From an uncultured Caulobacterales bacterium (GTDB lineage Bacteria; Pseudomonadota; Alphaproteobacteria; Caulobacterales; Maricaulaceae), in contig CALKXY010000033.1 in NCBI GenBank assembly GCA_938003545.1, positions 62,001 through 126,000 on the forward strand: a stretch of 64,000 bases of DNA, given 5' to 3'. The position numbers and the translations under genes were made by a program. Positions 1,003-5,155 of the stretch are shown piece by piece; within the stretch, counting starts at the first letter, position 1, and every line of letters begins with the position of its first letter. Under the pieces are notes generated by a model, which was not told the origin of the DNA, did not search any database, and worked only from the letters and a program-made list of their open reading frames with translations.

Positions 1003-3096
1003 TTACTTAGGCTTGCGGGTGCTTTTTCTAGCGCCTTTTTTGACGCCGCCCTTGCTGCCAAAGCTATTCGGCGCGCCGCCTTTTTCTTTGAGTGCGGCTG
1101 CGCGAGCGAGCTTTTTCTTATGCGGTTTTTTCCCACCATTCGCGCCGCTCTTTGGCTTGTCATAAGACGGCATGTCAGAGCCTGTCGCCTTGCGGGACTT
1201 GCGTTTGAACGTGCCTTCTTCGAAGTTTGAATCCCGCTTAGGCTTATCGTCATTGGATTTTTTTTGATCGCCAGACGGTTTATCGTCGTAAGATGTCTTC
1301 TTGTCAGCCCAAGGTTTCTTATCACCGCGAGGTTTCTTTTTGTCGTCCCATGGTTTTTTGTCGCCATATGATTTTTTCTTATCGCCGTAAGGTTTGCCCT
1401 TGCTGCGACCGGAATTATTGTCGCGATCTCGTCCGCGATAATTTTCTGTGGGCTGTGCGAGGTTTGGTTTTCCGTCGACGCGCGCCGCCGTAATCGCCGC
1501 TTCGATTTTCATGTCAGGGCCGATGTTTTCAAGGAAACGTTCGACGCCTTTCGGAGCCATTTCAACAAAAGTCTTATTGTCGATAATTTTGATCGCGCCG
1601 ATTTCACCCTTTTTGAGGCCACCAGATTTCATGAGCATTGGCAAAATCCATTTCGGTTCTGCCTTCTGCTTACGGCCCACATTAAGAGAGAACCAGACGC
1701 CGTCGTCGAAGTTTTCGCGTGGGCCAGAGCTGCGGGCATCTGGATGACGCGCACCGCGTTCGTCTTTGCTTGGCTTATAATTAGCAGGCAGGAGCTCTTC
1801 TGGTGCGGATTGGCCTTCACGATATTGGCGAATGAAGGCCGTCGCGATGTGTTCAGCGGAATGTGCTTTCAATAGACGCGCAACCATTGTGCTTTCTTCG
1901 TCCGTCACCTCGCCATTAAGGGTCATATTTTCAAGCAGGCGCTCATTATCTTTGGCGATGATCGACTCTGCGCTTGGCGCTTCGCCCCATTCTGCGGATT
2001 TAATACCGGCGTCGCGTAGTAAGCGTTCGGCATTACGGCGGCGGCTCGGCGCGACGATCAAGGCAGATACGCCTTTGCGGCCTGCACGGCCTGTTCGGCC
2101 AGACCGATGGAGCAGAGCTTCGCGGTTACGCGGCACATCCGCATGAATCACAAGCTCCAGATCAGGCAAATCCAAGCCGCGCGCCGCGACATCTGTCGCA
2201 ACGCAAACCTGGGCGCGGCCATCTCTTAGAGCTTGAAGGGCATTGCTGCGTTCGGCTTGGGACAATTCACCCGACAGCGCGACAACAGAGAAACCGCGAT
2301 TGTTAAAGCGTTGCGTCATGCGGTTCACGGCAACGCGCGTATCGCCGAAAACGATGGCGTTTTTCGCATTATAATAGCGCAACACGTTGATGATCGCATT
2401 TTCCCGATCTGCATTGGAAACGGTCATCACGCGATATTCGATGTCCAAATGTTGTTTGGCTTCGGCCGCAGTGTTTACGCGCACAGCATTTTTTTGATAT
2501 TTCTTGGTCATGCCCAAAATCGTTTTTGGCACGGTGGCAGAGAACATTAATGTACGGCGTTCCTCTGGGGCTGCGCCAAGAATAGTCTCCAACTCTTCAC
2601 GGAAACCCATTTTCAGCATTTCATCGGCTTCATCTAGGGCGATACATTTCAACTCGCTCATGTCGAGAGAGCCGCGTTTGATGTGATCACACAAACGACC
2701 CGGCGTACCGACAACGATATGTGCGCCGCGTGATAGGGCACCACGTTCCGTGCGCATATCCATGCCGCCGACGCAGCTGGCCGTTTTTGCGCCCGCATCT
2801 TTAAAGAGCCAATCCAGCTCGCGTTTGACCTGCATGGCAAGCTCGCGAGTTGGTGCGATACAGAGCGCCAAGGGCGCGTCGGCCCGAAGAAATGCGCTGG
2901 CATCGCCCAGTAATGTCGTTGCCATTGTCAGGCCAAAGGCAACGGTTTTACCTGATCCTGTTTGGGCGGAGACAAGAAGGTCTTTGTCTTGTAATTCTGG
3001 TGCAAGAACGGAGTCTTGAACAGGTGTGAGGGTTTCATAGCCCTTTTTTTCCAAAGCGATTGCGAGTGCTGGATGCACGTTTTCAATATTGGACAT
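1003..3096 (-). CDS. deaD: DEAD-box RNA helicase with DbpA-type RNA-binding domain and basic tail
   Basis: ATP-dependent RNA helicase, probably for ribosome assembly, RNA decay or cold growth. All core motifs are present: AQTGSGKT at 44-51, PTRELA at 82-87, TPGR at 131-134, DEAD at 155-158, SAT near 186, and HRSGRTGRAGRKG in the second RecA domain. Residues about 470-550 (from WFSLNVGRKQKAEP onward) look like the DbpA RNA-binding domain found in DeaD/CsdA. From about 560 the protein turns into a low-complexity Lys/Asp-rich tail with degenerate repeats of the form GDKK-x(3)-DDKK, ending in Lys/Arg-rich residues; such tails bind RNA non-specifically. The 697-residue length fits DeaD rather than the shorter RhlE. 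The gene is transcribed alone, towards the dehalogenase. Confidence 0.93.
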   Translation of the reverse strand: MSNIENVHPALAIALEKKGYETLTPVQDSVLAPELQDKDLLVSAQTGSGKTVAFGLTMATTLLGDASAFLRADAPLALCIAPTRELAMQVKRELDWLFKDAGAKTASCVGGMDMRTERGALSRGAHIVVGTPGRLCDHIKRGSLDMSELKCIALDEADEMLKMGFREELETILGAAPEERRTLMFSATVPKTILGMTKKYQKNAVRVNTAAEAKQHLDIEYRVMTVSNADRENAIINVLRYYNAKNAIVFGDTRVAVNRMTQRFNNRGFSVVALSGELSQAERSNALQALRDGRAQVCVATDVAARGLDLPDLELVIHADVPRNREALLHRSGRTGRAGRKGVSALIVAPSRRRNAERLLRDAGIKSAEWGEAPSAESIIAKDNERLLENMTLNGEVTDEESTMVARLLKAHSAEHIATAFIRQYREGQSAPEELLPANYKPSKDERGARHPDARSSGPRENFDDGVWFSLNVGRKQKAEPKWILPMLMKSGGLKKGEIGAIKIIDNKTFVEMAPKGVERFLENIGPDMKIEAAITAARVDGKPNLAQPTENYRGRDRDNNSGRSKGKPYGDKKKSYGDKKPWDDKKKPRGDKKPWADKKTSYDDKPSGDQKKSNDDKPKRDSNFEEGTFKRKSRKATGSDMPSYDKPKSGANGGKKPHKKKLARAAALKEKGGAPNSFGSKGGVKKGARKSTRKPK

Positions 3097-3402
3097 GGCT
3101 GTCGTCTTTCATTGGATTGGTAAAACCAATCTGACAAATATTTTGTCTGGCTGATCGATCACGTCGATCTCGTTGGCCAACTCAAAATTAACAGGCCGTG
3201 GGCGCTCCCTATGTTGTTTTGTCAGCGGTGCATAGCCTAACGCGCAGGGGGAGGCCGTAACCGCCCATCAAGGGAACGGCAGAGGATAAGCAGGACAGCC
3301 CGCGTGGTCGATATTCGCGATGGAATACCAAAATAGAAAAATGTTTTACGCAAATACCGCACGCATTGGGATGTCAGTCCAACATGTGCATACCACGCGG
3401 CA
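3097..3402. other. Intergenic region upstream of deaD, no gene seen
   Basis: About 300 bases between the deaD start and the structured element at 3403. No convincing reading frame, tRNA or mobile element was found. It must hold the deaD promoter on the minus strand and presumably the promoter of the RNA element on the plus strand, but I could not pick a clear -35/-10 pair for either. A GC-rich stretch at about 3240-3310 contains short complementary pieces and may belong to the same RNA. Confidence 0.5.
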
Positions 3403-3663
3403 GCGGTTTTTGGTGCGACGGTTGGGGGTCCCGCAGTTGGACGTACCGGTCAGACTCTCAGGGTGTAAATCCCAAGACCCCGGTTGACGCCCAGCAGTCA
3501 ACGCTCATCGCAAAAGGTCCGGCACACGTCTGGCTCTCACACCAAACCGCTCAACCCCACCGTCTCTCGGTACCAGCAAGCGAGGCCTCACCTGTCCCGT
3601 GTCCGAAAGAACCTGTGTACCGTATCATAGGTTTTGGGACCAAGGATCATTCTCTTGGTTTTT
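3403..3663 (+). ncRNA. Candidate structured RNA, possibly a group II intron 5' fragment
   Basis: No protein is supported here, but many complementary segments nest. GCGGTTT/GGTG at 3403-3415 pairs with CACC/AAACCGC at 3540-3550 (11 pairs, two-base bulge). Inside it, GGGGTC 3425-3430 pairs with GACCCC 3476-3481, GGG 3461-3463 closes with CCC 3471-3473, and GTTGAC 3483-3488 closes with GTCAAC 3497-3502. A second domain pairs CGGTACCAG 3568-3576 with CTGTGTACCG 3613-3622. A terminator-like hairpin follows at 3640-3663. The stretch starting GTGCGAC at 3413, with GGGTGTAAATCCC and the GTTGAC hairpin, reminds me of domain I of bacterial group II introns, but there is no reverse transcriptase and no domain V, and the outer helix would span the intron boundary. 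It does not show the hallmarks of RNase P RNA, SRP RNA or tmRNA. Confidence 0.5.
3640..3663 (+). terminator. Intrinsic terminator after the structured RNA
   Basis: CCAAG at 3640-3644 and CTTGG at 3654-3658 form a stem with a nine-base loop, followed directly by TTTTT. It lies on the plus strand about 180 bases before the next gene, so it most likely ends the RNA at 3403-3663 and separates it from the PIF1-like helicase. Confidence 0.6.
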
Positions 3664-3844
3664 GACGTAAGAAATTGAAACTGAACGATAGTTATTTTTC
3701 AAAAACAAGAATTATTCTCAAATCGTAGTGCGAGTTTAAGACATATGTCATCATTGAAGACACTGGTGGTCGGACGGATGTATAGGGGCTATGGTTTTGA
3801 CGAGTCTGCTGGTTTCAGGGGCAATATGAATATCTCGGTGTTGA

Positions 3845-5155
3845 ATGCCGGAAAGGGTCCTTGTGTCTACACTGAAAAATTACTCTGAAGCGTCCGAAAC
3901 GGACCCGACAGTTGATCATATTTTGGAACAACTTCGCTCTGACGACCGCTCCCCCATTCTCGTCACGGGCGAGGCGGGGACAGGGAAGTCTACGCTTGTC
4001 AATTATATCAAACGACTGGGCGATTTGGGGAATACGGTTGTCTTGGCCCCAACAGGCGTCGCGGCCTTGAATGTAGGGGGGCAAACGCTGCATTCGTTTT
4101 TCAGGCTTCCCTTTCAGGTGATTGATGAAGGCGCTTTGAGTGATCAACGTGCCAATCGCCTTTGGAAAAAGGTCGAGCTTGTTGTCATTGATGAAATCTC
4201 AATGGTGCGTGCGGATATTTTAGATGGGATCGATATTATATTGCGGCGCGCGCAAGCGTCGGATCTTCCCTTTGGGGGATGTCGTCTCTTGCTCGTCGGG
4301 GATTTCCACCAACTTCCGCCCGTAATTCCACAGCGTGAAACCGCTGTTTTGACGCAAATGGGCTATGCGGGGCCCTACGCATATGATGCGAAGGTTTTGC
4401 AAAATTACCCGCCTGTGCATTTCGAGCTCACCACTGTGTATCGCCAAAAAGACCCGCATTTCGTCAGTCTTTTGTCCGATATCCGCGTGGCGCGAAATGT
4501 TGCCTCTGCCGTAGCCAAGATTAATGACATTTGTGTGCGGCCGCATCGGGCGGAACATACGCCTGTCTTGCTGACGGCGACGAATGCGGTTGCGGATAAA
4601 TATAACAGGCAAGGGCTTGCCGATCTCGCCAACCAGCAGATCGAATATGATTGCGTGACGAAGGGGAAGTTTAATGAAAAACGCGCCCCCGCCCCGCCGC
4701 ATCTGAAGCTCAAAAAAGGCGCGCGGGTCATGGCGGTCAAAAACGATCCGCAAAAACGATGGGTTAATGGCTCTTTGGGGACGATCACTGACCTCACTCA
4801 GGAAGAGGTCTATGTGAAGTTTGACAGCGGCGGCGGCGTTCGGAAAATAGAGCGACAAAAATGGGATGCGATTACTTATAAATGGAGCGAAGCCGATCAG
4901 AAGATGATTGAGGCTACAACGGCGAGTTTCGAACAAATTCCATTGATCTTGGCTTGGGCCGTGACGATCCATAAGGCGCAAGGCTTGACGTTGGACGATG
5001 TTCGTATTGACCTCGGGCGAGGCGCCTTTGCATCAGGGCAAACCTATGTCGCCTTATCACGCGCCCGTACGCTTTCGGGGCTTTCGTTAACGGCGCCTCT
5101 GCGTGTTGGAGACATTCCTCCAAGCCAGCACAGCGCAACCATGTCGCGCTGGTAA
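3845..5155 (+). CDS. PIF1/RecD-like DNA helicase
   Basis: ATP-dependent 5'-3' superfamily 1B helicase, likely acting on DNA forks or structured DNA. Seen: Walker A GEAGTGKST at 42-50, Walker B VVIDEISM at 113-120, GDFHQLPPV, and the C-terminal motifs TIHKAQGLTLD and YVALSRART typical of PIF1 and RecD2. At 436 residues it is a minimal core without extra N- or C-terminal domains. Start choice is uncertain: the ATG at 3845 lacks a ribosome site, whereas the in-frame GTG at 3863 has GGAAAGG five bases before it, so the protein may be six residues shorter. It appears monocistronic, between the RNA element and the exported SDR. Confidence 0.88.
   Translation: MPERVLVSTLKNYSEASETDPTVDHILEQLRSDDRSPILVTGEAGTGKSTLVNYIKRLGDLGNTVVLAPTGVAALNVGGQTLHSFFRLPFQVIDEGALSDQRANRLWKKVELVVIDEISMVRADILDGIDIILRRAQASDLPFGGCRLLLVGDFHQLPPVIPQRETAVLTQMGYAGPYAYDAKVLQNYPPVHFELTTVYRQKDPHFVSLLSDIRVARNVASAVAKINDICVRPHRAEHTPVLLTATNAVADKYNRQGLADLANQQIEYDCVTKGKFNEKRAPAPPHLKLKKGARVMAVKNDPQKRWVNGSLGTITDLTQEEVYVKFDSGGGVRKIERQKWDAITYKWSEADQKMIEATTASFEQIPLILAWAVTIHKAQGLTLDDVRIDLGRGAFASGQTYVALSRARTLSGLSLTAPLRVGDIPPSQHSATMSRW

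Follow-up and report, generated by a model that had tools for sequence, protein, structure and literature searches.

The HEARO or OMEGA RNAs of IscB-type elements are large, structured and multi-copy, and their distribution is of the mobile type. Integron cassettes and CALIN arrays consist of single-gene inserts with hairpin or core repeats behind a fixed boundary, and the consensus of the attC site is RYYYAAC ... GTTRRRY. In PMC11109978, mobile/repeat sequence candidates (MRSC) are described as having a covarying structure and often dozens of copies per genome, and are read as selfish or repeat elements.

The locus described here lies in a stretch of 64,000 nucleotides (the window) from an uncultured Caulobacterales bacterium, whose own genome (G000) is a 2.3-Mb assembly that is 76% complete. 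A 750-base gap in the window holds one copy of a folded, apparently non-coding RNA element, much as an initial annotation of this DNA had proposed, and covariation across homologues supports the RNA fold. The main fact was invisible from the window: the element is a high-copy dispersed repeat. The base-paired fold and the repeat family are firmly supported, whereas transcription, function and mobility are inferred. On balance we favour the reading that this is a family of structured-RNA repeats of about 430-480 bases, non-autonomous, intergenic and dispersed, whose 3' end would be a point of gene insertion or exchange. Novel in any case are its copy number, the sequence exchange at fixed sites and the one-sided turnover of genes.

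The blastn matches to own-genome copies span mostly window positions 3287-3714, and the 5' hairpin domain and the 3' repeat were recognised by aligning copies (Table 1). The element takes in the originally proposed extent of 3240-3663 and is wider. In many copies a sequence close to CAAGCG-NNNN-CGCTCACAGCC precedes the 5' hairpin domain, as judged by eye. The direct repeats R1 and R2 lie 65 bases apart; counterparts were seen by eye in other genera and in distant congeners (e.g. G015, G104, G109 and G028), and persist even where the CCAAG/CTTGG hairpin is absent. Because R1 and R2 sit at the boundary of the gene turnover described below, this 3' module may have a role in attachment. The CCAAG/CTTGG block itself (3641-3659), first taken for an intrinsic terminator, proved to be present in many own-genome copies and absent from relatives, where it reads e.g. 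GCGGGGATCATTCTCTTGAA, and a terminator scan did not return it.

Table 1. Features of the element copy in the window and its two neighbour genes (window coordinates).
Feature	Positions	Strand	Remarks
DEAD-box RNA helicase gene, upstream neighbour	1003-3096	-	
Whole element, this copy	about 3240-3719	+	5' limit uncertain by about 20 bases
5' variable hairpin domain	3240-3287	+	other copies have different hairpins in the same place
5' domain hairpin of this copy, GCCGT/ACGGC	3254-3258 with 3276-3280	+	
P1 5' strand, GGACAG	3293-3298	+	partner 3592-3597
P2 5' strand, CCGCGTGGT	3300-3308	+	partner 3392-3400
P3 hairpin	3310-3329	+	3310-3316 with 3323-3329
Unpaired block TGTTTTACGCA	3342-3352	+	highly conserved in the alignments
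P5 variable hairpin	3366-3382	+	3366-3369 with 3379-3382; module swapped between copies
P2 3' strand, ACCACGCGG	3392-3400	+	partner 3300-3308
Central variable domain	3401-3497	+	a minority of copies, this one included, have its GUGCGAC and GGGTGTAAATCCC motifs
P8 hairpin	3516-3556	+	3516-3518/3554-3556, 3521-3523/3549-3551, 3528-3533/3542-3547
P1 3' strand, CTGTCC	3592-3597	+	partner 3293-3298
3' conserved block GTCCGAAAGAAC	3601-3612	+	near-invariant among own copies; pattern for the collection scan
R1, first direct repeat, AGGATCATTCTC	3643-3654	+	
R2, second direct repeat, here AGAATTATTCTC	3708-3719	+	
PIF1-like (PIF1-type) helicase gene, downstream neighbour	3845-5155	+	

Support for the fold comes from three alignments: A1 holds 19 own-genome copies, A2 has 32 3'-domain sequences, and A3 has 25 5'-domain sequences from the own genome and relatives. 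The rows of A2 descend from 57 pattern matches, which gave 52 cores; a 3' domain was present in 49 of these, 33 were left once near-duplicates and long sequences had been removed, and 32 were used. Those of A3 were taken out of 42 5' sequences. Compensatory changes of the kind that the initial annotation had named as a check were found in all three. Cells in which both partners had changed numbered 38 over the 37 pairs of A1 (10.0 in shuffles), 74 in A2 (30.1) and 56 in A3 (18.9; double changes in 14 of 23 pairs), a level reached by none of 500 shuffles in any alignment; nor did any of the 500 match the observed covariation score or fraction of paired cells. Sliding the partner strand by 1-3 columns destroyed the signal in each alignment; the shuffle controls keep the relatedness of the sequences, and the slid versions remove it. 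Weaker measures gave a weaker contrast: the number of A2 pairs with a double change was 10 against 8.7 in shuffles (99/500 as high), and further pair types were matched by 11/500 (A2), 24/500 (A3) and 27/500 (A1) shuffles.

Among the individual helices, P1 is paired in 98.2% of cells in the 19 copies of A1, nearly invariant and without double change; the next pair outward is G-C in 55, A-T in 18, A-C in 22 and other in 11 of 118 copies, with 12 not scorable. P2 is paired in 97.3% of cells, with double changes in 5 of its 9 pairs across the 25 sequences of A3, in which P3 (78.0%; 3 of 7 pairs) and P5 (77.6%; 6 of 7 pairs) covary as well. The P8 helices of A2 are paired in 93.8% and 81.6% of cells, with double changes in 7 pairs, and retain one G-U pair in 31 of 32 sequences, which favours RNA over DNA as the folded molecule. 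A third candidate helix in A2 was paired in only 36.6% of cells and was dropped. The fold had originally been thought to be closed by an 11-pair helix (3403-3415 with 3540-3550). Its letters exist here and pair better than slid versions (75.1% of cells against 27.8-49.8%), but its covariation does not rise above background (0.137 against a shuffled mean of 0.140, with 319 of 500 shuffles as high), and its 3' strand overlaps the strongly covarying hairpin 3528-3533/3542-3547. An RNA is not evident from single-sequence folding (z = -1.33 on the plus strand and -1.73 on the minus strand), and its support comes from the homologues.

The reading frames crossing the gap had been put down to chance, and five such frames had no Pfam family at E<=0.1. 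The homologues show no coding pattern, and in those own copies that were inspected the frames running across the element are likewise chance ones. A coding element was considered and rejected: some frame was open over 80% of the core length in 59 of 118 cores, the best frame of A2 was open in 24 of 32 rows with positional variability of 0.19/0.15/0.20, and core lengths were spread over all three residue classes. Rfam gave no family match to the element in the window, in the region at E<=10 or at the relatives' loci; whether at gathering, E<=10 or E<=2, it returned only a tRNA near the G034 copy and sub-threshold chance matches. The single copy found in G034 ends beside a tRNA gene on the opposite strand (L123 1020-1093). 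The models that had been suggested for comparison (Rfam group II, tmRNA, RNase P and 6S) do not match the element, and neither Rfam nor ARAGORN gave a tmRNA, RNase P RNA, 6S RNA or tRNA match in the window or region. No match to the element was returned by blastn against phage and plasmid collections or by one exact pattern against IMG/VR, no paper on noncoding RNA of Litorimonas was found, and the wider literature searches gave no account of the element, judging by titles and the openings of abstracts. The earlier suggestion of a new RNA class is supported by the absence of an Rfam match, the strong covariation and, in the genomes searched, matches confined to one Caulobacterales family.

Compared with its own genome, the gap gave 44 matches, the non-self ones at 70-96% identity; grouped, these amount to about 40 copies (some matches are pieces of one copy), and the covariance model gave 40. 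In 23 of the 44 cases a contig end is no more than 100 bases away, which shows the assembly breaking at the repeat. The flanks of the own copies are mutually unrelated except for short terminal stretches and, behind some copies, a second repeat of about 100 bases. This second repeat, CATCCCAGC...GCTGGGATCC, has inverted halves and was observed downstream of the G000 copies L011, L015, L016, L029 and L036. Across the genus, a census with a covariance model (model R2, E<=0.001, 150 candidates scored per genome) placed the element in 13 of 18 genomes with 1-51 copies each (G008 51, G013 44, G000 40, G012 38, G002 38, G005 35, G016 30, G010 26, G004 26, G009 22, G003 9, G015 8 and G007 1), and gave none in the other five. 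At least 20 of 137 genomes of the family, in at least 4 of 19 genera, carry it, as do at least 13 of 398 genomes of the order, all 13 belonging to the same family; these two censuses undercount, since their filters were stricter and 26 and 9 candidates, respectively, were scored per genome. A pattern scan of a genome collection gave at least 97 stretches, and the titles of the 80 matches listed all name Caulobacterales, Litorimonas cladophorae or Hellea sp., so that the named carriers include Litorimonas cladophorae. In the genomes searched, the RNA element is confined to one family of Caulobacterales.

Copies keep their addresses on one side. By synteny, 77 of 144 sampled copies fall into 27 clusters; the upstream side is common to the members in 26 of them and the downstream side in 9 (restricting the set to clean copies leaves 26 clusters with 70 copies; the 144-copy sets used for synteny and for the flank test, like the 129-copy set of the hairpin-repeat scan below, still include some false pattern matches). 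In the flank test, 88 cross-species copy pairs had a flank in common: the near upstream gene in 58 and the near downstream gene in 10, with the downstream gene common but further off in another 20; the pairs are non-independent and the counts are therefore given without a p-value. The distance from the RNA to one such downstream gene, at a single locus, is 119 bases in G000 and 2334 bases in G005. The stability of the sites speaks for old copies rather than for an active mobile element. Neither a target-site duplication nor a clean empty site could be defined at the DEAD-box locus or at L022/L138/L189, because the intergenic sequence was not alignable. A preference for a convergent downstream gene, strong in the own copies, came to 40 against 29 in 69 copies (p = 0.23) and was set aside.

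The neighbours of the window copy follow the same pattern. The DEAD-box gene and its adjoining RNA copy are common to G000, G008 and G013; in G010 the RNA copy is further off, and 8 of 13 DEAD-box loci are without one (one of the 8 is truncated where its contig stops). G002 has an RNA copy at this locus too (L234), oriented opposite to those of G000, G008 and G013. A block resembling GCGCTCCCTATGGTGTTTT...TGCATAG, conserved by eye, precedes the DEAD-box gene (L226-L238; window 3097-3235) in genomes with and without the RNA element, and is probably the promoter and leader of that gene. Downstream, the PIF1 gene of G013 follows a different RNA copy (L062), and that of G008 comes about 1.9 kb after an RNA copy; also in G008, an 86% homologue of the SDR gene of the window lies behind yet another copy (L206). 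A swapping of downstream segments among copies would account for these placements as well as insertion would. No neighbour gene common to the RNA copies was found. The PIF1-like helicase was considered as a partner of the RNA. Its gene is present in G000 and 8 congeners, all of which have 22 or more RNA copies, and was not found in the remaining 9 genus genomes. It thus accompanies high copy numbers, with the exception of G004, where there are 26 copies and no such gene, and it may only mark a clade.

The sequences of the copies tell a different story from their sites. For identity comparisons, 118 of 144 copies were kept by match score and 114 remained after four unlike the rest were dropped (one of these, from G034, is probably true but mis-anchored), giving a cleaned set with 244 core columns. 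Median identity was 0.754 within genomes, 0.705 between copies at orthologous sites and 0.672 in other cross-genome pairs (0.749, 0.705 and 0.664 for the 118 copies). Within a given genome pair, orthology adds only 0.005 to 0.011: orthologous-site and other pairs stood at 0.754 and 0.749 for G000-G008, 0.720 and 0.709 for G000-G013, and 0.698 and 0.687 for G008-G013. The nearest relative lay within the own genome for 80 of 114 copies (13.7 expected) and at an orthologous site for only 6, though 70 have such a partner. Homogenisation is uneven, with within-genome medians of 0.815 in G000, 0.747 in G008 and 0.667 in G013, so that the median within G008 resembles that of G000-G008 and the median within G013 falls below that of G000-G013 (0.709). 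Among 23 own copies, all four combinations of the two module types occurred in 3 of 6 module pairs, as expected from recombination or gene conversion. Judged by these comparisons, many copies stand at orthologous sites and yet appear to be rewritten by copying from one another, through gene conversion or copying. Concerted change of this kind is familiar for rRNA genes; we know of no such familiar case among dispersed RNA elements.

The main rival to a repeat family draws on these same observations. It holds that the copies are functional, trans-acting RNA genes (a scaffold, a sponge or a ribozyme), which selection keeps at promoters of the upstream flank and which are homogenised in the manner of rRNA genes. 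Conserved linkage on the 5' side, strong covariation together with conserved unpaired blocks, and the similarity of copies in the same genome are all as such genes would have them. The distribution is patchy, however, with no copies in 5 of 18 congeners and 117 of 137 family genomes (the latter at the stricter setting), a common upstream promoter was not seen by eye, and several copies begin a few bases past an upstream stop codon. We regard a trans-acting RNA gene family as a possibility, if an unlikely one; it predicts transcription, as does the repeat-element reading that we prefer.

What lies behind the copies bears on how the 3' side changes. A hairpin repeat close to GAGYGKCTTA...TAAGACRCTC, often with a GCGGACGTTAG-like core, follows several copies. 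With three substitutions allowed, it was found 125-160 bases after GAAAGAAC in 13 of 101 clean copies (9 with at most two substitutions), and in the 1.5 kb upstream of 19 of 101, at scattered distances; the loose pattern also gave false matches at 28-36 bases, inside the element. A second hairpin often stands at the far end of a single-gene insert (the two lie at 141 and 865 in L138, 144 and 1273 in L184, and 153 and 1305 in L205). Of the insert genes, 7 of 9 are without a Pfam family, the others being a DUF3137 and a glycosyltransferase gene. Terminal inverted repeats of 24 bases (88%) are present in the insert L016, and no clear ones were found in the other 7 of the 8 insert regions inspected. 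The core pattern was matched 4 times in G000, 2 in G013 and 7 in G008, against 0, 0 and 1 in controls; the RNA-free G006 has 4 weak matches against 1 in its control, and the hairpin/core repeat is for this reason not specific to the RNA element. The hairpin/core repeats may form a family of their own, with a preference for the 3' end of the element.

A bolder interpretation, which we hold to be doubtful, would make each copy an RNA-headed platform for gene capture without an integron integrase, R1-R2 being the dedicated entry site for single-gene cassettes that have hairpin/core repeats at their boundaries. On similarly doubtful ground, a genome would then carry tens of small cassette loci, with fixed addresses and exchanging sequence.

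The inserts also raise the possibility that the element acts at the DNA level, as folded single-stranded DNA serving as an attC-like recombination site. Such a site would suit the insert boundaries found behind the element, which have hairpin repeats and a core of the GTTAG type, and the single-gene inserts, mostly without a Pfam family. Against it, the G-U pair of P8 and the U-A/U-G/C-G exchanges point to RNA, and none of the 18 genus genomes has an integron integrase over the cut-off. By eye, GTTAGAC/GTTAGGC cores stand behind some copies, and many others depart from RYYYAAC/GTTRRRY, the attC consensus. We consider a DNA-level repeat improbable. Sub-cut-off integron integrase matches occurred in 17 of 18 genus genomes and in 14 of 14 control genomes, and are probably Xer-type recombinases. 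An RNA copy was also observed beside the same gene in L020 (G000), L175 (G008) and L172 (G012); in G000 this gene (C4:82071-82871) has a sub-threshold integron integrase match and is itself probably a Xer-type recombinase.

Stand-alone copies of an OMEGA-type guide RNA (IscB/HEARO or TnpB) would be alike in size, copy number and branched fold, but Rfam HEARO has no match in the window or region at E<=10 and TnpB was found in 0 of 18 genus genomes with working controls (positive in 6 of 14), which makes this reading very improbable. RRXRR (IscB) was likewise found in 0 of 18, a weak argument because the controls were equally silent.

A degenerate group II intron, or 5' relic of one, was the original suggestion for this copy on the strength of its GUGCGAC and GGGUGUAAAUCCC letters, and it is rejected here as extremely improbable: the motif is variable, lies mid-element and occurs in few copies, Rfam has no match, and the copies of this genome stand between genes and share another fold, one that covaries. 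The GTGCGAC at 3413, once taken as the intron start, recurs in only two further copies of those compared (L030 and L047), its place being taken elsewhere by TGATGCAACGG, TGTTGCGACGG or TGACGAAGCGG; the GGGTGTAAATCCC and GTTGAC hairpins, read as intron domain I, belong to a central module that is found in a subset of copies and is lacking or replaced in others. Reverse transcriptase and domain V had been noted as missing; Rfam gave no group II match, and no reverse transcriptase was found in the own genome (76% complete) or in G013, these being carriers of 40 and 44 copies; the enzyme occurs in 6 of 18 genus genomes, uncorrelated with those that bear the RNA. What stands from that first reading is a structured RNA with a corrected anatomy.

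For the dispersed repeat family that we favour, a plausible course of events would be as follows. The RNA element would be transcribed and bind a protein partner, and would have spread through copying machinery provided in trans, together with recombination between copies. The searches for a mobility enzyme speak against this, integron integrase (over the cut-off) and TnpB being found in 0 of 18 genus genomes and reverse transcriptase being uncorrelated with the RNA. Such spread via an enzyme in trans probably took place in the past, leaving copies that would now be old at most shared sites and would exchange sequence with one another. The 3' module R1/R2 may be the entry or exchange point for single-gene inserts bounded by hairpin repeats. 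Since the element is present in the cultured Litorimonas cladophorae KCTC 23968, its transcription and function are directly testable.

A multi-domain covarying RNA with up to about 50 dispersed copies that combine fixed addresses with sequence exchange is unusual in bacteria, and if the 3' turnover is site-specific insertion, it would represent an unrecognised route of gene capture in Alphaproteobacteria. To our knowledge, OLE, GOLLD and ROOL do not form dispersed families of tens of copies per genome. The element resembles integron and CALIN arrays in that a fixed boundary is followed by single-gene inserts and hairpin/core repeats, and differs from them in lacking an integrase over the cut-off, in the mixed orientation of its genes and in the large RNA at the boundary. 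From the HEARO/OMEGA RNAs it is set apart by the lack of an Rfam match and by the absence of TnpB from all 18 genus genomes, RRXRR being equally absent but with a silent control. OLE, GOLLD and ROOL are large ornate RNAs that are long and highly structured like the RNA element. With the MRSC of PMC11109978 it has in common a covarying structure and many copies per genome; MRSC-65-2, as described there, consists of one long stem and is represented in diverse phyla, whereas the RNA element is a multi-domain RNA of about 430 bases, found in one family and often at orthologous sites.
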